Part shown: piece by piece, positions 3 through 9,267 of the stretch
How the letters are laid out: every line of letters starts with the position of its first letter
Position numbering within the stretch: the stretch's first letter is position 1
NCBI GenBank assembly: GCA_903970475.1
Contig: CAJCIQ010000129.1
Span: 1-64,000, forward strand
DNA length: 64,000 nucleotides
Direction: 5' to 3'
Source: Beijerinckiaceae bacterium
GTDB lineage: Bacteria > Bacteroidota > Bacteroidia > Chitinophagales > Chitinophagaceae
The notes under the pieces: generated by a model
What the model was told of the DNA's origin: nothing
Databases searched by the model: none
The model's input: the letters and a program-made list of their open reading frames with translations, nothing else
Program-made: the position numbers and the translations under genes

Positions 3-392
3 GACCAAAGCCTTTCCCCGGTAAGGGGGCAAATTGCGGTGGTTGATGCCCCTGGAGTGGACGCCATTTATGTGGATTCAGAAAGTCCAACCTATTTGGT
101 ACCAAGGGCTGATGGTTGTGTCGTAGGTGGGACTTATGAAAAGGAAGCCTGGGAAGAAACGACGGATGCCCAAACCATTGCTGCCATTTTGGAAAAAGCA
201 CCCCGGTTACTGGATGGAGATTACAGCCGTGTAATCCGAACTTATGCCGGACTCAGACCTTATAGACCTACCGTTAGATTGGAACTAGATTCCCATAAAC
301 CAAGGTTGATTCATAATTATGGTCATGGCGGAGCGGGATTTACCCTTTCCTGGGGTACTGCCTTGTCGGTGGCCCAGCTTTTGCGTTCTTAA
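3..392 (+). CDS. D-amino-acid oxidase-like flavoprotein, C-terminal part (5' end outside window)
   Basis: The open frame runs in from the window edge, so only the last 129 residues are visible. They match the C-terminal half of FAD-dependent D-amino-acid oxidases, which deaminate D-amino acids oxidatively to 2-oxo acids. Visible family signatures are the strand PVRGQ near the start, the substrate-binding segment TYAGLRPYRPTVRLE, and the FAD-binding end RLIHNYGHGGAGFTLSWG. The Arg in GLRPYRP is the position that usually holds the substrate carboxylate. No signal peptide can be judged. The stop lies four bases before the next gene, so the two are very likely co-transcribed. Another member of the DAO fold family, such as a glycine oxidase, is possible, but HNYGHGG is typical of D-amino-acid oxidase. 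Confidence 0.85.
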   Translation, partial: DQSLSPVRGQIAVVDAPGVDAIYVDSESPTYLVPRADGCVVGGTYEKEAWEETTDAQTIAAILEKAPRLLDGDYSRVIRTYAGLRPYRPTVRLELDSHKPRLIHNYGHGGAGFTLSWGTALSVAQLLRS

Positions 393-396
393 TCCC

Positions 397-1233
397 ATGA
401 GCACCCTACGTATCGCCATATTAGATATGTATGAAGGCAGGCCCAATCAAGGCATGCGCTGCCTCAGGCATCTTCTTTCCTCGTTTGGAGAAAAGATGGG
501 GCTGGATATCCAAATGGTGGAATTTGAAGTAAGGTTGCGCAAAGAAGTTCCTGATAACAGCTTTGATGGCTATATATCAACGGGAGGCCCTGGTTCTCCA
601 CTGGAAAGCCAGGGAAGCGACTGGGAAGCAGCCTATTGGGATTGGCTGTCCAGGATGGAAGCATGGAATGCCAATTCAGCTAACAGAAGAAAGAAATTCA
701 TTTTTTTCATTTGCCATTCTTTCCAGTTGCTTTGCAGACACTATGCCCTGGCGGACGTTTGCCCAAGGAAATCCACAGCCTTTGGTGTATTTCCGGTGCA
801 CTTGCTAGAGCCGGGAAAATCAGAGCCTATCTTTACCAGCCTTTCAGATCCGTTTTATGCAGTTGACAGCAGGGATTTCCAGGTGATTCAACCCAAAACA
901 GATGTCTTGGAAAAGAGAGGAGCCTACCTTTTATGCATTGAAAAGGAAAGGCCTCATGTGCCCTATGAAAGGGCTATCATGGGCATACGATTTTCTCCCT
1001 GGTGGATTGGAACGCAATTTCATCCGGAAGCGGATGCCATGGGGATGCACCAATACCTGCAAATGGAAGATAAGCGCCAGGCCATCATCTCCGAGTATGG
1101 GGAGGACAAATGGAAGAGTATGACCGAACAATTGGAAGATCCGGACAAAATAATGTGGACCTACAACCATATACTCCACAATTTTTTAAAATTGATGACC
1201 GACGATTTGGCTGTTCATGAACTTTATGCCTAA
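397..1233 (+). CDS. class I glutamine amidotransferase-like protein
   Basis: This 278-residue protein has the class I glutamine amidotransferase fold, which releases ammonia from glutamine for a partner synthase. The oxyanion strand is STGGPGSP near residue 61, the nucleophile elbow is FICHSFQLL with Cys106, and the His/Glu pair is FHPEAD at His209 and Glu211, so the triad looks complete. No synthase domain is fused, so the protein stands alone. The ATG at 397 is preferred over an in-frame ATG at 319 because it follows the oxidase stop by four bases and starts the conserved first strand (LRIAILD). The partner is unknown. An ATP-grasp-like protein two genes downstream is an obvious candidate, but that is inference. 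Confidence 0.8.
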   Translation: MSTLRIAILDMYEGRPNQGMRCLRHLLSSFGEKMGLDIQMVEFEVRLRKEVPDNSFDGYISTGGPGSPLESQGSDWEAAYWDWLSRMEAWNANSANRRKKFIFFICHSFQLLCRHYALADVCPRKSTAFGVFPVHLLEPGKSEPIFTSLSDPFYAVDSRDFQVIQPKTDVLEKRGAYLLCIEKERPHVPYERAIMGIRFSPWWIGTQFHPEADAMGMHQYLQMEDKRQAIISEYGEDKWKSMTEQLEDPDKIMWTYNHILHNFLKLMTDDLAVHELYA

Positions 1234-1266
1234 ATTGATCATTCAATCATTAATCACATCCATCTT

Positions 1267-1779
1267 ATGCCCCTTATCATCCAAAAGAAAAGCCTGCTGA
1301 CGGTAGGAGTGATAGTAGCCACCGCTTCTATCATAACTGCTTTTACCTCCAGGGACAACCAGCAACCGCCTCAACACAAGCACAATTTTAAGGTGCTCCC
1401 CCAGGATATCAGCAGGGATAGCCTGGACATGATCATGGATCATTTCAAGGCGGCGTTGGGTGTCAAATGCGGATATTGTCATGCCCAAAGCACAACAAAT
1501 CCGGGACACCTGGACTTCTCCAGTGACGATAAGCCAGAAAAAGAAATTGCACGTAAGATGATGGTGATGACCAATGACATCAACCAGAAGTATATGCGCT
1601 TCAACGAAGATTCTACCAATCAGACCGAAGCCGTATCCTGTATTACCTGCCATAGAGGTGATGCTCATCCTGAGGCTAAGTATCCAGCAGACGACCATCA
1701 CCAGGGACCTCCTCCCGGTGGCGCTCCCCAAGGACCTCCTCCAGGCGGCAACCCCCCTCCAGGAGGGAATGGTAAATGA
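1267..1779 (+). CDS. diheme c-type cytochrome, reaction-centre-cytochrome-like
   Basis: This 170-residue exported protein has an N-terminal hydrophobic segment at about residues 9-26 that acts as signal or anchor. Two heme c sites, CGYCH at 68-72 and CITCH at 125-129, show that it carries two covalent hemes and works outside the cytoplasm. The stretch NFKVLPQDIS followed by a helix with Met before the first CxxCH resembles the photosynthetic reaction-centre cytochrome family (PF02276), whose short relatives are common in non-photosynthetic Bacteroidota. The last 25 residues are a low-complexity Gly-Pro tail with repeats of GPPPGG. Its ATGA stop/start overlap with the next gene suggests translational coupling. 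The electron donor and acceptor are not evident. Confidence 0.85.
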   Translation: MPLIIQKKSLLTVGVIVATASIITAFTSRDNQQPPQHKHNFKVLPQDISRDSLDMIMDHFKAALGVKCGYCHAQSTTNPGHLDFSSDDKPEKEIARKMMVMTNDINQKYMRFNEDSTNQTEAVSCITCHRGDAHPEAKYPADDHHQGPPPGGAPQGPPPGGNPPPGGNGK

Positions 1780-2978
1780 TTGCTTCCGTAAGGAATACGT
1801 ACAACAGCCTTTTTTCAGAGGATAAATACCGGGCCTTTCTACAGGCACTGGATAGGCCCCATCCGGGTGTAATCGAGTTCAGGGTAGCAGAAACCCCGGT
1901 ATTTGTCCCTCAAACACTCCTCCGCCAAATGGAGGAAACTTGTTCTTACCTGCTGGAGTTGATTGAAGATTCCCGTTTTAAGGAAATCACAGAAAGGGCC
2001 ATTCCGGCAAACTATAGGGTACCATCAGAAAATGACCACCCTCATTTCCTATGCTTTGACTTTGCCGTAAGCATGGATGAGCATGGACAACTTCAACCCC
2101 AACTCATAGAACTTCAGGGTTTCCCTTCCTTATTTGCCCTCCAGGTATGGATGCCGGAATGTTACCAGTTCGAATTACCCGTCCCCATTCACTTTTCCTA
2201 CCTATTGGATGGACATACCCAAGAAAGTTACCTGGATCTTTTGAAAGACATCCTCATTGGCCCTTGCCCCAAAGAAGAAGTCATTCTTTTAGAGATAAAG
2301 CCACATGAACAAAAAACCCGGATAGACTTTTACCTGACACAGGATTACCTGGGCATACGGCCCGTATGCATCACCGAAGTATTTGCCGAAGGCAACAGAT
2401 TATACTACATGCGGGATGGCATTAAAACCAGGGTGCAAAGGATTTATAACCGGATGATATTTGATGAGCTACAGGCCAGACAAGTTGAATTAGGTCCCAT
2501 TATTGATCTGACCAGGGACTGGGAGGTTACCTGGATTACGCATCCCAACTGGTTTTACCGGATCAGCAAATTCCTGCTACCCTTATACCATCATCCCCAT
2601 GTTCCCAAATCTTACTATGTCAGTGAGCTCAAACAATTGCCGCCTGACCTGGATCAGTACGTACTAAAACCATTGTTTTCCTTCGCCGGACAAGGTGTAA
2701 TCATAGACGTTACCCCTTCGGATCTGGATGCCATACCCGATCCTGAAAATTGGATACTGCAACGGAAAGTTCCCTATGCAGACATCATCCAAACCCCGGA
2801 TGGGCCCGCCAAGTGTGAGATCAGGTTGATGTATTTCTGGAAAGAGGGAGACCCCAAAGCCAAACCTGCCAACAACCTGGCACGCCTTAGTAAGGGCAAG
2901 ATGATTGGCACCAGGTATAATCAGGATAAAACATGGGTAGGAGGAAGCGCCTGCTTCTTTGAGCCCGGCCGCCGCTAA
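1776..2978 (+). CDS. uncharacterised ATP-grasp-like protein
   Basis: I do not know a function for this 400-residue cytoplasmic protein. Its last third has features expected of an ATP-grasp nucleotide site: a Lys strand and small-residue loop (YVLKPLFSFAGQGV), a hinge strand (WILQRKVPYA), an acidic/basic pair (CEIRLMYFW), and a late metal-ligand Asn followed by KGKMIGTRYN. ATP-grasp enzymes join a carboxylate to an amine or thiol through an acyl phosphate. The N-terminal part holds the segment PQLIELQGFPSLFALQ, which looks conserved but matches nothing I can name. The start overlaps the cytochrome stop by four bases. The substrate cannot be inferred. The ATP-grasp assignment rests on motif reading alone. 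Confidence 0.6.
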   Translation: MIASVRNTYNSLFSEDKYRAFLQALDRPHPGVIEFRVAETPVFVPQTLLRQMEETCSYLLELIEDSRFKEITERAIPANYRVPSENDHPHFLCFDFAVSMDEHGQLQPQLIELQGFPSLFALQVWMPECYQFELPVPIHFSYLLDGHTQESYLDLLKDILIGPCPKEEVILLEIKPHEQKTRIDFYLTQDYLGIRPVCITEVFAEGNRLYYMRDGIKTRVQRIYNRMIFDELQARQVELGPIIDLTRDWEVTWITHPNWFYRISKFLLPLYHHPHVPKSYYVSELKQLPPDLDQYVLKPLFSFAGQGVIIDVTPSDLDAIPDPENWILQRKVPYADIIQTPDGPAKCEIRLMYFWKEGDPKAKPANNLARLSKGKMIGTRYNQDKTWVGGSACFFEPGRR

Positions 2979-3012: not shown

Positions 3013-4344
3013 TTAGTGAAACAAAACCATAAACGTATGGATTCCTTCCGAATACAGGTATCGTATATGCATGCCAGACAATTCAACAATTTCCTTGGCT
3101 ATAGTAAGCCCCAGCCCTACCCCTTCAGAAGGGAACTGCTTTTGGAACCTTTGAAATAAACGGTCATTGTCCAGGGGGGCTTCCTGCCCCGAATTACTTA
3201 CCCTTAGGGAGCCGGGTGTAAGCACAATACGGATTTCTCCACCTTTGACATTATGCCTTACGGCATTGCTGAGTAAATTATTGATCAGGCTTTCGGCCAG
3301 GTAAGGATGCATATCGACCCTAACCTCTTCCAATACCAGTGAAACACTAAGGTCAAACTGTGCGATCCATTCTTGGAATAGGTCGATTTTCTCTTCTATC
3401 AATACGCTCAGGTCCAGCGATTCTTTTTCCAGGAACTGGCGGTTTTCAATTCTGGCCAGTAAAAGCAATGACTGGTTAAGCCTGCTGAGTCTGCCGACCG
3501 CAACAAGGAGCTGATTCATTTGTTCCAGCGTAACCTGGTCCAGTCCTGGATGTTGCATCATCAGGTCCAGTTTAGATTTGATCACCGCCAAGGGGGTTTG
3601 CATTTCATGGGCGGCGTGGTCTGTAAACTGCTGTAGCGCCAGGTAATCGCTTTGCATTTTCGCCGTCATGTCTTGTACGGACCGGTTCAACAGGGCAAAT
3701 TCTTCTATTCGGGAAGCTTGAAGGTTATCCGAAGGAGGGTCTGCCAAGCTGAATTTTTTTAGGTAAGCCAGGGTATGATAAAAAGGTTGCCAGATCCTGC
3801 GCAGCAAAAACCTGTTTCCCAGGTATAGTCCCAGGATCAGAATACCCAAGGATCCCACGGTGACCCATAAGATCAACCATAATAAATCCTCTGTTTCTTC
3901 CAATGATTTTGAAATACTGATATTATACCACTGCCCTTTTACCCTAACAGAAAACCTCAACCGCCTGATGACTTCTTCCCCCCTTCCGTGTTCTCTCCTA
4001 CCCGTTGCATTTTCAAAAATCCTTGCATCATGATCTTCATGTTCCGGATGACGTCCATACCCCCTCCCCGCACCATGTGCCTGTTCGGTATCCGTCTTTT
4101 CCTCAACAATGGGGGCCTGGACAGGAGCCCAATTCAACTCCTGATCCCTTACGTGAGAAGGCGCAGGCAGGGAATCATGCAACTGAACAAAATCAAGTAA
4201 CTCCTGACGTTCGATCTTAAGGTCATTGTCTACCTGGTGAATCAGGACGTATCGTATAGTGAGGTAATAGGCAAGGCAGCCCATAGCCAGCAGCAGGCAG
4301 AGCAAAATAATGTAGAAGCGTTGGTAGGTATTGGCTAAAGTCAT
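3013..4344 (-). CDS. sensor histidine kinase with a His-rich periplasmic loop
   Basis: This 443-residue membrane kinase pairs with the response regulator whose stop it overlaps (ATGA). Transmembrane helices lie at about 11-29 and 153-176. The loop between them would be periplasmic and holds a cluster rich in His, Asp, Glu and Arg at about 88-120, with His at 90, 99, 102, 105 and 119. The dimerisation/phosphoacceptor helix carries AAHEMQTPL with His246. The ATPase domain has an N box (NNLLSNAVRHN, 355-365) and a G box (GVGLGL, 408-413). A start 15 bases upstream (4359) is possible; 4344 gives the usual four-base overlap. The His-rich loop suggests sensing of a metal cation, which is inference supported by the metal-related genes upstream. 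Confidence 0.88.
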   Translation of the reverse strand: MTLANTYQRFYIILLCLLLAMGCLAYYLTIRYVLIHQVDNDLKIERQELLDFVQLHDSLPAPSHVRDQELNWAPVQAPIVEEKTDTEQAHGAGRGYGRHPEHEDHDARIFENATGRREHGRGEEVIRRLRFSVRVKGQWYNISISKSLEETEDLLWLILWVTVGSLGILILGLYLGNRFLLRRIWQPFYHTLAYLKKFSLADPPSDNLQASRIEEFALLNRSVQDMTAKMQSDYLALQQFTDHAAHEMQTPLAVIKSKLDLMMQHPGLDQVTLEQMNQLLVAVGRLSRLNQSLLLLARIENRQFLEKESLDLSVLIEEKIDLFQEWIAQFDLSVSLVLEEVRVDMHPYLAESLINNLLSNAVRHNVKGGEIRIVLTPGSLRVSNSGQEAPLDNDRLFQRFQKQFPSEGVGLGLTIAKEIVELSGMHIRYLYSEGIHTFMVLFH

Positions 4345-5021
4345 GGTTGATCCGTCCATTTATATCCTACGCCATAAATCGATTGCAGATAATCCGTGGA
4401 GCCTGCATCTTCCAGCTTTTTGCGAAGATTCTTGATATGGGTATAAATAAAATCATAGTTGTCCACCAGATCCATATCGTCTCCCCATAGGTGTTCTGCC
4501 AGGGCGCTTTTGGGGATAACCTTATGGCGGTTGGAAACCAGGTATAGCAGCAGGGCATATTCCTTTTTTGTAAGTCCCAAAGGTTTTCCGTGCACCGTAA
4601 CCGTCCTACCCTCCGTATCAATGTGAATTTCGTGATACTCTAAAAAAGACTGTCCCCCATATTGTTTCCTTCGTATGATGGCGGCTATCCTTGCACCCAA
4701 CTCAGGTAAATGAAAAGGTTTAGCCAGGTAATCATCTGCTCCCATCTTAAGACCGGTAATCTTGTCTTCCAACCTGTTTTTCGCAGAAATAATCAATACC
4801 CCGTCCGTTTTTCGATTGACCTTGAGCTCCTTTAACAAAGACAATCCATCCCCCCCTGGGAGCATGATGTCCAGCAGGATACAATCGTATTGATAGACTT
4901 CCATCTTATCCAGGGCCTCCTTATAAGTCCTGGCCGCTTCACAGGTATAATCCTCTAAGGAGAGGTACTTTACCATGCTCTCCAGCAATTCGGGTTCATC
5001 TTCCACTATGAGCAGCTTCAT
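4341..5021 (-). CDS. OmpR/PhoB-type response regulator
   Basis: This 226-residue regulator has a receiver domain with acidic pocket Glu7/Asp8, phosphoacceptor Asp51 in CILLDIMLPGGDG and Lys101 in YLAKPF. A winged-helix DNA-binding domain follows, with GLTKKEYALLLYLVSN and IYTHIKNLRKKL as recognisable segments. The ATG at 5021 starts the first receiver strand; an upstream in-frame start at 5069 would add 16 residues that do not look conserved. The gene overlaps the kinase gene, so the pair is one transcription unit. On the strand being read, TTATTTTG ends five bases before the ATG, a one-mismatch fit to the TAnnTTTG -7 box. Targets are unknown; the metal-related run upstream is the natural guess. 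Confidence 0.92.
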   Translation of the reverse strand: MKLLIVEDEPELLESMVKYLSLEDYTCEAARTYKEALDKMEVYQYDCILLDIMLPGGDGLSLLKELKVNRKTDGVLIISAKNRLEDKITGLKMGADDYLAKPFHLPELGARIAAIIRRKQYGGQSFLEYHEIHIDTEGRTVTVHGKPLGLTKKEYALLLYLVSNRHKVIPKSALAEHLWGDDMDLVDNYDFIYTHIKNLRKKLEDAGSTDYLQSIYGVGYKWTDQP

Positions 5022-5107
5022 GGGGGCAAAATAAACCTTAAATCTGTACAAATGCTGAAGACGGCCCACCTAGCCCTGGGTTCCCCAACCGGTCCCCCTT
5101 AAACCGT

Positions 5108-5159
5108 GTCAGGGCTCCACAACCCGGCTGTGAAAAACCAGCCGGTTGTCGACCCTGAC
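5108..5159. repeat. long imperfect inverted repeat (hairpin 1)
   Basis: The arm at 5108-5130 begins GTCAGGG and ends GGCTG. It pairs with 5139-5159 across an eight-base loop, with one bulge and two mismatches. It lies between the response regulator gene and the barrel gene, both on the minus strand. It has no U tract, so a simple intrinsic terminator is not assured. Confidence 0.6.
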
Positions 5160-5198
5160 CCGGCTTGGATATAGCTGGCAGTTTTGATAATGAGAGAG

Positions 5199-5256
5199 GG
5201 GGGTAGGAGCGCTAAATGTGCAGTTTTTTTCCTGCGCATTTAGTGCTCCTACCCCC
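5199..5256. repeat. 25-bp inverted repeat (hairpin 2) downstream of a minus-strand gene
   Basis: Arms of 25 bases (5199-5223 and 5232-5256) begin with GGGGGTAGGAGC and enclose the loop TTTTTTTC. The two differences between the arms would be G-U pairs in a plus-strand RNA but C-A mismatches in a minus-strand RNA. It sits 20 bases beyond the stop of the 5277 barrel gene and may act as that gene's terminator. A separate small RNA cannot be excluded. Confidence 0.65.
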
Positions 5257-5276
5257 AAAAAAGCTTGCAAAAAACC

Positions 5277-6119
5277 CTACCTATAAGCATTCAAAAAATT
5301 ATACTCCAACCGCAGAAAAACCTGATGCGTACTCCACCGATCCATATTCCCCGTGAGCTGAGCACGGTAACCCAGATCCAGCCTGGAGATGGAGTTAAAA
5401 ATGAACTGGATGGCTGGAGCCACATCCACAAAAGCCACAGACTTATCCAGCGCAGTAGAAGCCAACCATTCACACATCAGGTTGATATTGGTCTGATGGT
5501 AGGACCTATAATGCTTAGGCAGCAAGAGCCAACCAGCGGAAGCCGTGTAGTTCAGCGCCTCATTGGACTGTCCGGGTAAGCCATGCACAGTCTGCCCCTG
5601 ATCCCACCGCTGTGTATAAGCCAGGGAACCTGATAGGGCAAGCTTGTGCAGGAGCTGCGTTCCTACCAAACCTGCCAGGTATCCGGAGTTGGACCCGTTC
5701 AAGTCTATTTCATCAGACCGCTCAGAAGCGCCCTCTCCTGCAAGGTTAGGAGGCTGGTTCACCAAGGCCGCCTTAGCAAACGCCGCCAGCCGGAAATGCC
5801 GATGGATCCCATCACCGGCATAGAACCGGTATTTCGCATATATACTCCCACCTTCGGCCTGAAAGCTGGATGGATACATATTGGAAAAGTAACCAGCCAC
5901 ATGAACCATCAGCTTACGGGAAGCACCCACCATGATTTCCGGTTCCAGCCGATAGGAATAAGATCCATCTTCCATGTGGTAAAGGGTGTTATTAACCCTA
6001 AGCCCAATACTGTGGATTGCCATATTAGAAGCGGGCTCTGTGAACACAAATAACTCCTGGGCCCTTACCCCAGAAAAAGCCAATAGCCCTAAAAGGAGTA
6101 CACCTATTTTATAAATCAT
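5277..6119 (-). CDS. outer-membrane beta-barrel protein, uncharacterised
   Basis: This 280-residue protein starts with a clear signal peptide (residues 1-20, ending GVRAQ). Alternating polar and hydrophobic strands follow with many aromatic residues, ending LRLEYNFLNAYR as barrel proteins do. Similar proteins in Bacteroidota are annotated only as putative transporters. The start lies ten bases after the stop of the metal-binding lipoprotein gene, so they share a transcript. It is the last gene before two hairpins. Context suggests an envelope role in metal handling, such as efflux or uptake across the outer membrane, but nothing in the protein itself shows a metal site. Confidence 0.7.
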   Translation of the reverse strand: MIYKIGVLLLGLLAFSGVRAQELFVFTEPASNMAIHSIGLRVNNTLYHMEDGSYSYRLEPEIMVGASRKLMVHVAGYFSNMYPSSFQAEGGSIYAKYRFYAGDGIHRHFRLAAFAKAALVNQPPNLAGEGASERSDEIDLNGSNSGYLAGLVGTQLLHKLALSGSLAYTQRWDQGQTVHGLPGQSNEALNYTASAGWLLLPKHYRSYHQTNINLMCEWLASTALDKSVAFVDVAPAIQFIFNSISRLDLGYRAQLTGNMDRWSTHQVFLRLEYNFLNAYR

Positions 6120-6129
6120 AGGTTCACTT

Positions 6130-6693
6130 TTAAAAGGTTACATGGTATTCTCTTGTACCCTCGGCTACCTGAATAGTACCCATCTGGTAGTTCATAGCTG
6201 CCTTACCTGTTTTATAGCAAGGCAGTTGGATAATGGTACTGTACTTTTTGTATTCGGCGTCCGGGAGGAATCCTTTATCGATAATCCTCAAGGACACTTG
6301 ACCAGTCAAGGTTTTAGTAGGTACATGGACAAAATGTAAGAAGATCCCATCCATAAGCATATGGTCGTTATTGTGAACACCTACCCCATTGAGGTTAAGA
6401 AACAACGTCAAGGTATCCACGGAAAAACCAGCACCCTTCACGGCCTTTTGGAGATCATCCAGTACAATGACACCTGAGCTTTTGAAATTGATCATAAAAG
6501 AAGAATGCTCTACGTCCGGGCTTACCTTGTCAACAAAAGGAAGTTTGGTAAGGGCTTTGAAAATGGCATTGGAACACATAGAGCAGGTCAGACCGCTGGC
6601 AACCAGGTTGGCCCTGGGTATAGTATCGCTATTCTGGGCAGCACAGCTAAACATAACTGTCACTAAGGCCAGCATTAAAAGTAATTGTTTCAC
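6130..6693 (-). CDS. heavy-metal-associated (HMA) domain lipoprotein
   Basis: From a GTG start at 6693 this 187-residue protein begins with a lipoprotein-like signal (MKQLLLMLALVTVMFSC, lipid Cys17). A ferredoxin-like HMA domain follows with GLTCSMCSNAI, the CxxC pair being Cys37 and Cys40, which in this family binds soft metals such as copper. About 90 further residues with no recognised motif follow. An ATG at 6786, one base after the preceding stop, would add 31 residues that do not look like part of a signal peptide; I prefer the GTG but the choice is open. It lies between the HYC-type gene and the barrel gene. A periplasm-facing metal chaperone is likely but not proven. Confidence 0.8.
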   Translation of the reverse strand: MKQLLLMLALVTVMFSCAAQNSDTIPRANLVASGLTCSMCSNAIFKALTKLPFVDKVSPDVEHSSFMINFKSSGVIVLDDLQKAVKGAGFSVDTLTLFLNLNGVGVHNNDHMLMDGIFLHFVHVPTKTLTGQVSLRIIDKGFLPDAEYKKYSTIIQLPCYKTGKAAMNYQMGTIQVAEGTREYHVTF

Positions 6694-6787
6694 GATGAAT
6701 GGATAAATGATATGAAAGAATAGGACACGGGAGGTCCGATCAAAAAAAACACGCAAGGGCGGCAAGCCCTGGCGGACAACTTTCATA

Positions 6788-7177
6788 TCAAACCCGGAAA
6801 TTACCGTATAGCAAGGTCAAAGAGGAAGGAATTTTGGGTGGGGGGCGTGCTACGGAAGCTTCCCTGATTTGCCCATTCCTTAAAGGCGTTTGTAGACAAG
6901 AGAAAGCCAAAGGCACCAATACAGGCATAGGTGCTTCCACAAAATAGGAGCCTGCCCTTTGATGGCCGTCGCTGACCTTAAACACCTTTACTTCCGTGCG
7001 GCAGCAATTAGCGCCGGAAGATTCATGCATGCCGCAAGCTACCATAGGAGAAACACCGGGATGCTCCCATTGAACACAAGCCAGTCTCCCCATGCAGTAA
7101 TGCACATCTATCACCGTAGTGACGGTGGACAGCAGGTACATCCACCCCAGGGCCAAAAGACTAATGCGTTTCAACAT
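6788..7177 (-). CDS. small Cys-rich exported protein (HYC/CC/PP type)
   Basis: This 129-residue protein begins with a hydrophobic signal or anchor (residues 5-22). It then shows His26-Tyr27-Cys28, a CGM motif near 48, a Cys58-Cys59 pair in NCCRTE and a late RPPPKIPS. This order matches the small Bacteroidota family that I recall NCBI naming HYC_CC_PP. Its members sit beside heavy-metal genes, and no function has been assigned as far as I know. The ATG at 7177 is preferred over an in-frame TTG at 7201 that overlaps the porin stop. It follows the porin gene by 20 bases and precedes the HMA gene. The paired cysteines and the neighbour suggest a metal- or thiol-related periplasmic role. Confidence 0.75.
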   Translation of the reverse strand: MLKRISLLALGWMYLLSTVTTVIDVHYCMGRLACVQWEHPGVSPMVACGMHESSGANCCRTEVKVFKVSDGHQRAGSYFVEAPMPVLVPLAFSCLQTPLRNGQIREASVARPPPKIPSSLTLLYGNFRV

Positions 7178-7197
7178 GAACCTAAAAGTACGACAAA

Positions 7198-9267
7198 TCA
7201 ATTCACAAAGCCCCAGATCACCCCAAAATGGAAAAGTAATCCAGGGTCGGCATAACCTAGATAAGGACGATTATTGGCCTTAAAACCAAAGGGGCTAATG
7301 TTAAGGGTATTCAGGTTTTCAAGCCTGGTTACCAGGTAGAAGGTACGTATGCGGAAGTGAACGAAGGCAGCCACGTCCGGGCGGTTGTTGCTATAGGTGA
7401 CTGGGCTGGTCCCGTATGGAGAATCCTTCTGGCCCAATTGGGGAAAGAATTGTCCCAACAAGGGGGAGTAATTATCCACTTTAAAAGGACTGGCATACTT
7501 GACTTCAAAGCCGGTGGCCAGGTTGAGTTTTCGGTATTTGGTCTGATACAGGATTCTATTCCTGGTATAGAAAGCGGGTAAATGTACGGGGGCGTCTCCC
7601 GTTACCTGTTGGACATAAAACTCTCCGTACCAGGTCCAGTGCCTGGTCAACTTGAATTCCTTCACCGCTGAAAACTGGAGCAGGTTGAAAGGAGAAGTAT
7701 ACTGGTCTACCCCCATATAATCCTTGAGGTAGGTGTAGTTGGTCATGAGGTAATAATGGGCGCCCAGGTTCAACTTTAACAATGGCTGGTAGAGATAGCC
7801 AAACAATTGGGTATTGTTTTCATTACTCAAGCTGGAAGGATTGGTCCCAAAATTGAAACTACTGGCCTTCTCAAATACAAACGAAGGGGTCCGGTTGACG
7901 TTTTGGAAGCCGACCTGGAGTAAACCCACGTTTTTCCCCAAATACCTGGTTAAGGCTGCATAAGCCTCATAGTTCCCGACGTTATATCCTTCGAAGTAGA
8001 GTTTGCCATTCAATTCAATATCCCACTTTTTATTACGGGTTTGGTTGCGGTACTCCGCATGACCATAAACGTTATAAAACTCCTGCACACTGCTGGAAAA
8101 TGTCCCCTTCAGGTTTTCCAAGGTGATCCCTTCCGTCAGGTATTGACTGGGGTTTTTGGCCACCGGGTATTGAAACAGGGAAAAATCGTTGAGGATCTGG
8201 GACCACTTGTCTTGAATGAGAAATCCTGGCAATGGGGTACTCAGGAAGTCGTACACATTTTGGTAAAAGTGGGTAGAGGAATCAGGGCTGTTATCTACGT
8301 AGGAATAATTGTACCCATTGAGCTGTATGGTGTACTGCATGCGCAACCGCGCGTAGAACAGGTAATAGGTAGTAGAATCGTTGACCACCACCGAATCCTG
8401 TTGCCCCAGATCATATTGCTGACGAAGCATAATGGAATAATCCTCGTAGTGGGTTCCTGTCGAAAGGGCTGTATTGAATATATTACTCTGGTAAGATGTA
8501 TTACCTCCCAGGTTGGTCGGTATCTGAAAGCGTTGAGGATATTCACTCGTATTGATGATGGAGTCGTTGGTAAACCCTCCGTTTTCCTGGACCTTGAGGT
8601 TATTGAAATAGAAACCTCCGTATAGATGGTAGCGCTTTCGTGGAGATTCGTACCAAGTATACATGCTATAATTATTGTGGTTGGATTTCTGACTTTTAAA
8701 TTGCCCCGGAGCCCCTGTCAGGTGATAATGTAGGGCAAAATTCCAGTGCTGGTTGATGTTCTGCGTATGAAGGACGTTGATATCCTGTTCACTGGCACTC
8801 CCTAAATAGTACATCATTTCCGTATACGGTCGGGTAGTCGTATAGAATCGGGTGCTATCCCAATTAAACCTGTATATATCCAAAGAGTGAAACCCTGCAT
8901 CCCAACCTGCACGCATGTTTGGCGAAAACTCTTCTGGTTTTGCCGCGGTACCCACATTGCCCAAAGATCGGTAGTTGGCAGGGAGGGGATACCACTTGTC
9001 TATGTCCGCTATGGAAGTATCCATTTTGTAAACATGGGTGGAATCCATAAACCGATAGGTAATGGTCAGGGTGTCTTCCAGTCCCGTACGGTGCTTCAGT
9101 GAATCTTTTTTAGGCTTTTGTCCGCTGTTACTACTATTACCCATGCCCCCTCCGTTCATGCCCTGAAGGTTTCCGAAGGGGTTTTGCGCCCTTAGACCCT
9201 GCACACAGCCCAATACCAAACTGAGCACAATCCAAACCCGGGTAATAGATGATAATCTTAACGGCAT
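7198..9267 (-). CDS. putative porin (Porin_10-like)
   Basis: This 689-residue outer-membrane protein begins with a signal peptide ending LRAQ. A short Gly/Asn-rich stretch follows, then a long run of amphipathic strands rich in Tyr, Phe and Asn, ending HFGVIWGFVN. The segment TTTRPYTEMMYYLGSASEQ is typical of the Bacteroidota proteins annotated as putative porin. What passes through the barrel is unknown. The start at 9267 is set by the signal peptide; an earlier frame start at 9333 adds unrelated residues. A TATTTTTG box ends nine bases upstream. The gene follows purine nucleoside phosphorylase by 71 bases, so it may have both its own promoter and readthrough. Confidence 0.85.
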   Translation of the reverse strand: MPLRLSSITRVWIVLSLVLGCVQGLRAQNPFGNLQGMNGGGMGNSSNSGQKPKKDSLKHRTGLEDTLTITYRFMDSTHVYKMDTSIADIDKWYPLPANYRSLGNVGTAAKPEEFSPNMRAGWDAGFHSLDIYRFNWDSTRFYTTTRPYTEMMYYLGSASEQDINVLHTQNINQHWNFALHYHLTGAPGQFKSQKSNHNNYSMYTWYESPRKRYHLYGGFYFNNLKVQENGGFTNDSIINTSEYPQRFQIPTNLGGNTSYQSNIFNTALSTGTHYEDYSIMLRQQYDLGQQDSVVVNDSTTYYLFYARLRMQYTIQLNGYNYSYVDNSPDSSTHFYQNVYDFLSTPLPGFLIQDKWSQILNDFSLFQYPVAKNPSQYLTEGITLENLKGTFSSSVQEFYNVYGHAEYRNQTRNKKWDIELNGKLYFEGYNVGNYEAYAALTRYLGKNVGLLQVGFQNVNRTPSFVFEKASSFNFGTNPSSLSNENNTQLFGYLYQPLLKLNLGAHYYLMTNYTYLKDYMGVDQYTSPFNLLQFSAVKEFKLTRHWTWYGEFYVQQVTGDAPVHLPAFYTRNRILYQTKYRKLNLATGFEVKYASPFKVDNYSPLLGQFFPQLGQKDSPYGTSPVTYSNNRPDVAAFVHFRIRTFYLVTRLENLNTLNISPFGFKANNRPYLGYADPGLLFHFGVIWGFVN

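Follow-up and report, generated by a model that had tools for sequence, protein, structure and literature searches.

The window analyzed here is a 64,000-nucleotide stretch of a genome of the family Chitinophagaceae (Bacteroidota; assembly GCA_903970475.1, 263 contigs), namely positions 1–64000 of contig CAJCIQ010000129.1 (C129), so that it begins at the contig start. Four genes on the plus strand at its left end were studied, centered on a glutamine-amidotransferase-fold protein (GAT) and a 400-residue ligase (LIG400):

3–392, plus strand: DAO, the C-terminal part of a D-amino-acid-oxidase-like flavin adenine dinucleotide (FAD) enzyme (PF01266, E 8.5e-22); the contig end cuts the gene.
397–1233, plus strand: GAT, a class-I glutamine-amidotransferase-fold protein of 278 amino acids (PF00117, 29.3 bits; cut-off 22.8).
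1267–1779, plus strand: a two-CXXCH cytochrome c (c_type_nonphoto NF033196, 124.7 bits; cut-off 70; E 1.2e-36).
1776–2978, plus strand: LIG400, a predicted ATP-grasp acid-amine ligase of 400 amino acids with the glutathionylspermidine-synthetase fold (AlphaFold2 model, structural matches, and conserved residues).

The reading frames lie where the first-pass annotation of this DNA had placed them, separated by 4 and 33 bases and, at the last junction, overlapping in an ATGA (1776–1779). That annotation proposed that the four genes could form one pathway, in which GAT would supply ammonia to the ATP-grasp protein, and the oxidase and the cytochrome would act on the redox side. Homology searches indicate a different unit: the GAT–LIG400 pair is conserved across Bacteroidota and is part of a wider cluster. 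Two further ligases, GRASP2 and GCS2, were missed in the first pass, as they are located off the window on another contig, C113.

The N-terminal part of the oxidase is the last gene of C113 (PF01266, E 6.8e-14), and the last 12 bases of this contig (locus L179) are identical to the first 12 of the window, inside the oxidase gene. C113 and C129 are probably neighbors, with the cluster running on upstream beyond the window. Their adjacency is supported, though unproven, because the other sampled genome of the genus (G065, locus L180) has homologs of the whole series on one contig, in the order EST18, GRASP2, GCS2, then DAO, GAT, cytochrome, and LIG400, with identities to the window genes of 60% for DAO (window part), 71% for GAT, 75% for the cytochrome, and 67% for LIG400. 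Upstream on C113, in the same direction, there are an esterase (EST18 homolog), GRASP2, GCS2, a sigma-70-family factor, and a beta-barrel-like protein whose score was under its Pfam cut-off. The last two occupy L179:6970–8807 between GCS2 and DAO, and similar-looking frames were seen in the same place in L180. Downstream of LIG400, at 3013–7201 on the minus strand of the window, lie genes for a sensor kinase, a response regulator, an unassigned protein, an HMA-domain protein, and a small protein.

GCS2 could be assigned at the equivalog level, as the copy in locus L103 scored 511 bits against the YbdK-type model NF010039 (cut-off 371); the GCS2 of the window genome is 74% identical to the L139 copy. 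For GRASP2, the L103 copy reached 26.9 bits (E 2.7e-6) with TIGR00768 (rimK_fam), under the cut-off of 143.4, and the GRASP2 structure model, with a predicted local distance difference test score (pLDDT) of only 75.5, matched RimK at Z 16.7. A Foldseek search with GRASP2 placed D-Ala ligase, ArgX/LysX, and RimK at similar ranks, and the model-based label of a RimK/LysX/Ddl-like ATP-grasp protein is the only safe one. Membership in R2K was also considered and was set aside in favor of a RimK-like protein, the match (E 0.0094) being below the cut-off.

To describe conservation, the stretches around LIG400 homologs (80 loci) were searched by tblastn for GAT, DAO, the cytochrome, and other genes. 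GAT was found within 6 kilobases of LIG400 in 74 of the 80 loci. In 71 it shares the strand of LIG400, and in 67 of these it begins its match no more than 250 bases upstream. Gene calling alone gave GAT in 66/80 loci, as antisense frames masked it, and the tblastn figure of 74/80 stands. Of the same loci, 27 contain GCS2 and 25 contain GRASP2; one esterase occurs in 19 and a second in 11. The called order in Chitinophaga records was esterase-GRASP2-GCS2-GAT-LIG400 in 7/11 loci. Among 195 genomes sampled from the family, LIG400 was present in 142, GAT in 140, GCS2 in 143, and GRASP2 in 134, of which three GRASP2 matches (G014, G113, and G183) were only 36–37% identical and may be paralogs. LIG400 and GAT occurred together in 137 genomes, LIG400 alone in 5, GAT alone in 3, and neither in 50; all four core genes (LIG400, GAT, GCS2, and GRASP2) were found in 121 genomes, none in 47, and some in 27. 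The proposal that the amidotransferase and the ATP-grasp protein act together thus held up as far as their pairing is concerned, with 8 of 195 genomes having only one of the two, and LIG400 homologs lie near GAT as a rule; its ammonia role did not fare so well, as argued below.

The phylum sample added 380 genomes, of which 57 had both genes, 45 had LIG400 only, 17 had GAT only, and 261 had neither. This table leaves out 15 sample genomes of the window's own family (handles below G195) and sets aside weak GAT matches in G425, G534, and G463, with which the counts become 57, 45, 20, and 258. A subset of 80 phylum genomes was chosen, comprising 20 with both LIG400 and GAT, 20 with LIG400 and without GAT, 10 with GAT only, and 30 with neither. 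In these four groups, GRASP2 was found in 19, 20, 9, and 0 genomes (48/50 vs. 0/30), and GCS2 in 17, 19, 4, and 0 (40/50 vs. 0/30). Judging from match coordinates, nine of the 20 genomes that carry LIG400 together with GAT have the four genes contiguous (G205, G240, G263, G271, G289, G318, G320, G328, and G514). The three ligases were contiguous in 13, namely these nine and G223, G226, G261, and G305, in which GAT was on a different contig from the three ligases.

The oxidase and the cytochrome behaved differently. Neither the DAO part nor the cytochrome had a tblastn match at E 1e-6 in the 80 further LIG400 loci, some of which are short and give weak evidence of absence (L082 has only 684 bases upstream). 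The order DAO-GAT-cytochrome-LIG400 was kept in both sampled genomes of the window's genus, the window genome and that of L180, and conservation of all four genes across genera, which would have favored the first-pass pathway, was not found beyond these two genomes. DAO and the cytochrome look like local neighbors added in one genus, outside the conserved unit, the cytochrome having probably been inserted between GAT and LIG400. It is probably exported, judging from its hydrophobic N-terminus. A four-gene pathway with an oxidase and an exported cytochrome as its redox side is not supported, as neither was found by tblastn in the 80 loci.

At the sequence level, no Pfam or NCBIfam model matched LIG400 at E 1. 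The cut-off of Pfam GSP_synth was not reached, with no match at E 1 for LIG400 itself and weak matches for 42/81 homologs (best E 0.0042), and a search of the PDB gave only a weak match to YgiC (E 0.13 and 0.47). Because sequence searches gave no family match, the identification came from a structure model. The AlphaFold2 model, built with 81 sequences, had a pLDDT of 92.1 and a predicted template modeling score of 0.91. Upon comparison by VIA-align, it matched YjfC with Z 26.1 (344 residues aligned, 3.5 Å), YgiC with 25.4, Escherichia coli GspSA (Gss) with 24.5 (344, 3.8 Å), human glutathione synthetase with 23.6, and Cp1B with 22.8; the score then fell to 12.4 for 3k1t (a putative gamma-glutamylcysteine synthetase), 8.3 for LysX, and 7.8 for GshB. 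Foldseek with the same model returned 19 matches at E ≤0.001, all of the glutathionylspermidine-synthetase-type group. The model thus indicates that LIG400 is an ATP-grasp ligase of the glutathionylspermidine-synthetase type, and the ATP-grasp fold suggested in the first pass is supported by structure prediction.

The conserved residues were also inspected. K298 and G307 were present in 155/155 rows of the LIG400 alignment, indicating a lysine, which we take to be the ATP-binding one, and a glycine-rich loop; a weak hhalign match paired K298 with the KP of YgiC. D95, E112, and Q114 were likewise found in 155/155 rows, and position 93 was A, V, Q, or C in 150/155. These were placed by eye against the R, D, E, and N of the R-x-D ... 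E-x-N motif common to YgiC and Gss. YgiC and YjfC are reported to be peptide-spermidine ligases (Pederick 2023, as cited in PMC12568646), and the E. coli record names YgiC as such. The same paper credits fungal Cp1B with forming the first E-64 amide, which shows that the fold can build pseudopeptides independently of nonribosomal peptide synthetases (PMC12568646). By analogy, we infer that LIG400 would ligate an amine or amino acid to a peptide carboxylate.

Two other kinds of genes were seen around LIG400. A small cupin-domain protein follows it in a number of the loci L062–L141, with a homolog in 31/80 loci; the L072 copy matches Cupin_2 at E 2.4e-16. Efflux genes, presumably of the RND type, are near LIG400 in 19 loci and an HMA-type block in 9, together 28/80 loci, which suggested a metal chelator as a lead; among the twenty regions extracted from more distant genomes, no metal-efflux genes or HMA block were recognized.

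As for GAT, the Cys-His-Glu triad (C106, H209, and E211) was at a frequency of 1.00 (rounded) in 145 rows. The usual nucleophile elbow of class-I amidotransferases is C-x-G-x-Q; that of GAT is C-H-S-x-Q, with S108 also at a frequency of 1.00 (rounded) in the 145 rows. GAT also resembles homoserine O-succinyltransferase, below the cut-off of that family.

The slot of GAT can be occupied by another enzyme. Eight of the twenty extracted regions came from genomes with LIG400 and without GAT; in five of them (L220–L224), a protein of 339–342 amino acids was between GCS2 and LIG400, in the slot of GAT, and the L222 representative was a Peptidase_M29 (E 2.1e-17). Two others (L225 and L226) had GRASP2-GCS2-LIG400 with no hydrolase, and L239 had LIG400 alone. 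A close M29 protein, defined as at least 59% identical, was found in 0/20, 6/20, 0/10, and 0/30 genomes of the four subset groups in the order given above, five of the six being in GAT's slot; weaker M29-like matches (about 27–36%) occurred in 21 more genomes (9 with both genes, 4 with GAT only, and 8 with neither). E196, E268, H294, H314, and D316, which we take to be metal ligands, were conserved in 7 M29 rows.

LIG400 is replaced as well. In the GAT-only genomes, a protein of about 450–480 amino acids follows GRASP2, and its L232 representative matched CP_ATPgrasp_2 at 32.5 bits, against a cut-off of 32. Close homologs of this protein (at least 54% identity) were found in 0, 0, 9, and 0 genomes of the four groups, adjoining GRASP2 in 9/9 and GAT in 8/9; weaker matches were in G325 (36%) and in six others at 22–26%. 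The residues of its R-x-D ... E-x-N motif (R115, D117, E129, and N131) are conserved across an alignment of 10 rows. In some genomes, then, the place of LIG400 is taken by a circularly permuted ATP-grasp ligase. For L230, L231, and L233, antisense frames masked GAT in the gene calls, and match coordinates were used instead. In three GAT-only regions (L227–L229), an esterase-like gene comes after GAT; other clusters, too, have esterases at their flanks. What the data show is the order of the genes, their co-occurrence, the folds, and the exchange of GAT and of LIG400 for other proteins at the same positions of the operon.

Because three amide ligases of known kinds and a hydrolase share an operon, a small peptide-like product that is made and trimmed is suggested. 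We consider it probable that (esterase)-GRASP2-GCS2-GAT-LIG400 is a conserved Bacteroidota amidoligase cluster making and trimming a small peptide or peptide-amine independently of the ribosome. We infer the chemistry, the order of the steps, and the product being a small peptide, as follows. GCS2 would link an amino compound to glutamate, probably at the gamma-carboxyl of the latter; GRASP2, as a RimK-like ATP-grasp ligase, would add another residue; LIG400 would close the carboxyl end of the peptide with an amine or amino acid; and GAT, or Peptidase_M29 in its stead, would hydrolyze or trim the product. The product is probably gamma-glutamyl. Such a route would resemble the metabolism of glutathionylspermidine, though run by different enzymes. 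A more specific version, which we put forward tentatively and consider doubtful as it stands, is that the cluster makes a low-molecular-weight gamma-glutamyl peptide-amine, a Bacteroidota counterpart of glutathionylspermidine, built by YbdK-type, RimK-like, and glutathionylspermidine-synthetase-type ligases and turned over by a cysteine or metal-dependent hydrolase. Glutathione itself may be a candidate product. PF02955 (GshB) was over its cut-off in 16/40 LIG400 genomes, 4/10 GAT-only genomes, and 15/30 genomes with neither; the match was very strong, at E below 1e-40 (a threshold drawn after the results), in 1/40 (G318), 0/10, and 4/30.

Several observations weigh against the proposed peptide-making cluster. 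Its function is a predicted one, read from sequences and models rather than from a substrate or product. The profile comparison of LIG400 with YgiC/Gss by hhalign was weak (probability 5.4, E 0.007), and LIG400 does not have the R-x-D ... E-x-N motif, with E-x-Q for E-x-N and no R-x-D arginine; because of these two replacements, the substrate of LIG400 may differ from that of YgiC. GAT appears dispensable, as 14/20 genomes with LIG400 and without GAT had no close M29 either, and in G195 and G200 the cluster consists of GRASP2-GCS2-LIG400 and lacks a hydrolase. GRASP2 was absent from 14/142 family genomes with LIG400, and GCS2 from 3/20 genomes with both LIG400 and GAT (G228, G255, and G365) and from 6/10 GAT-only genomes, the remaining four matches being only 39–45% identical. 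Because GAT and GCS2 are each absent from some cluster genomes, the product may vary or parts may come from elsewhere. The genes are scattered in some genomes (G436 and G399). Further, the sampled genomes share ancestry, so that Fisher p-values overstate the association and serve as a guide only.

On the first-pass view, GAT would have genuine glutaminase activity and pass the ammonia to LIG400 for the making of a primary amide. We regard this as unlikely, although the GATase match is above its cut-off, the catalytic triad is conserved, and in 67/80 loci GAT comes directly upstream of LIG400 on its strand, the two matches being no more than 250 bases apart. An ammonia donor is hard to reconcile with a metallopeptidase in its slot, as in the five genomes without GAT, with the nine genomes that have GAT and the circularly permuted ligase without LIG400, with the separation of GAT from the three contiguous ligases in G223, G226, G261, and G305, or with the C-H-S-x-Q elbow. 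Moreover, amines or amino acids, rather than ammonia, serve as substrates of the closest characterized enzymes with the LIG400 fold (see also PMC12568646). Because a metallopeptidase can occupy its slot, GAT is more likely a hydrolase of the ligated product.

The ligases could instead add a peptide tag to proteins in the manner of RimK, which extends a protein C-terminus (PMC4431377, in part), with GAT or M29 removing the tag. The resemblance of GRASP2 to RimK is consistent with this, as is the proposal, in an excerpt of PMC6376114, that ligase and hydrolase operons are tagging systems for Anbu. However, no target protein gene was recognized in the cluster, and LIG400 and GCS2 resemble small-molecule enzymes, which makes protein tagging improbable. 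The putrescine-utilization (Puu) pathway offers another model, being a gamma-glutamyl protecting-group scheme; here, GCS2 would add glutamate to an amine, DAO would oxidize it, and GAT would remove the glutamate. DAO is directly before GAT in both genomes of the genus, and PuuB and PuuD are of the same broad folds. Since DAO had no match in the 80 other loci and two ATP-grasp ligases are left unexplained, we give this route very little credence. The making and trimming of a small peptide remains our preferred reading. Tight co-occurrence in the family and operons recurring across the phylum, with three of the four genes assigned by family or fold to amide-bond ligases, suggest a metabolite common to these bacteria. 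The swaps of GAT for a metallopeptidase and of LIG400 for another ATP-grasp ligase in the same slots give each part a direct, testable reading. A new peptide cofactor or signal, if there is one, would be broadly interesting in view of how common this phylum is.

Multi-ligase amidoligase neighborhoods, with several unrelated peptide ligases and peptidases per operon, were reportedly predicted by Iyer et al. in 2009 (as cited in PMC4431377 and PMC6376114), and the present cluster, with several ligases and a hydrolase in one operon, is like them in kind. No description of the GRASP2-GCS2-GAT-LIG400 set was recognized in searches of open-licence literature, which is weak evidence of absence. The set is of a known kind, is widespread, and appears uncharacterized. 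The Anbu operon (ATP-grasp, alphaE, transglutaminase-like, and Ntn hydrolase genes; PMC6376114, in part) also combines an ATP-grasp ligase with a hydrolase, and the ligase standing in for LIG400 matches CP_ATPgrasp_2; no alphaE, transglutaminase, or Anbu gene was recognized in the listed clusters, in which no search was aimed at them. Like YbdK-family carboxylate-amine ligases (PRK13515/NF010039), GCS2 of L103 is over the family cut-off, but here GCS2 is found with two ATP-grasp ligases and a hydrolase. Eukaryotic glutathione and homoglutathione synthetases and Cp1B share the LIG400 fold (Z 22.7–23.8, closed forms listed), whereas they belong to other gene clusters and organisms and are 11–14% identical in structural alignments. 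With Gss and YgiC/YjfC, LIG400 shares the fold end to end (Z 24–26), the presumed ATP lysine, and the glycine-rich loop, at 10–16% identity and with the differences in the E-x-Q and R-x-D positions described above. As in Gss, a ligase is paired with an amide hydrolase, but here the hydrolase is of the GATase or M29 type, and LIG400 is clustered with GCS2 and a RimK-like ligase.

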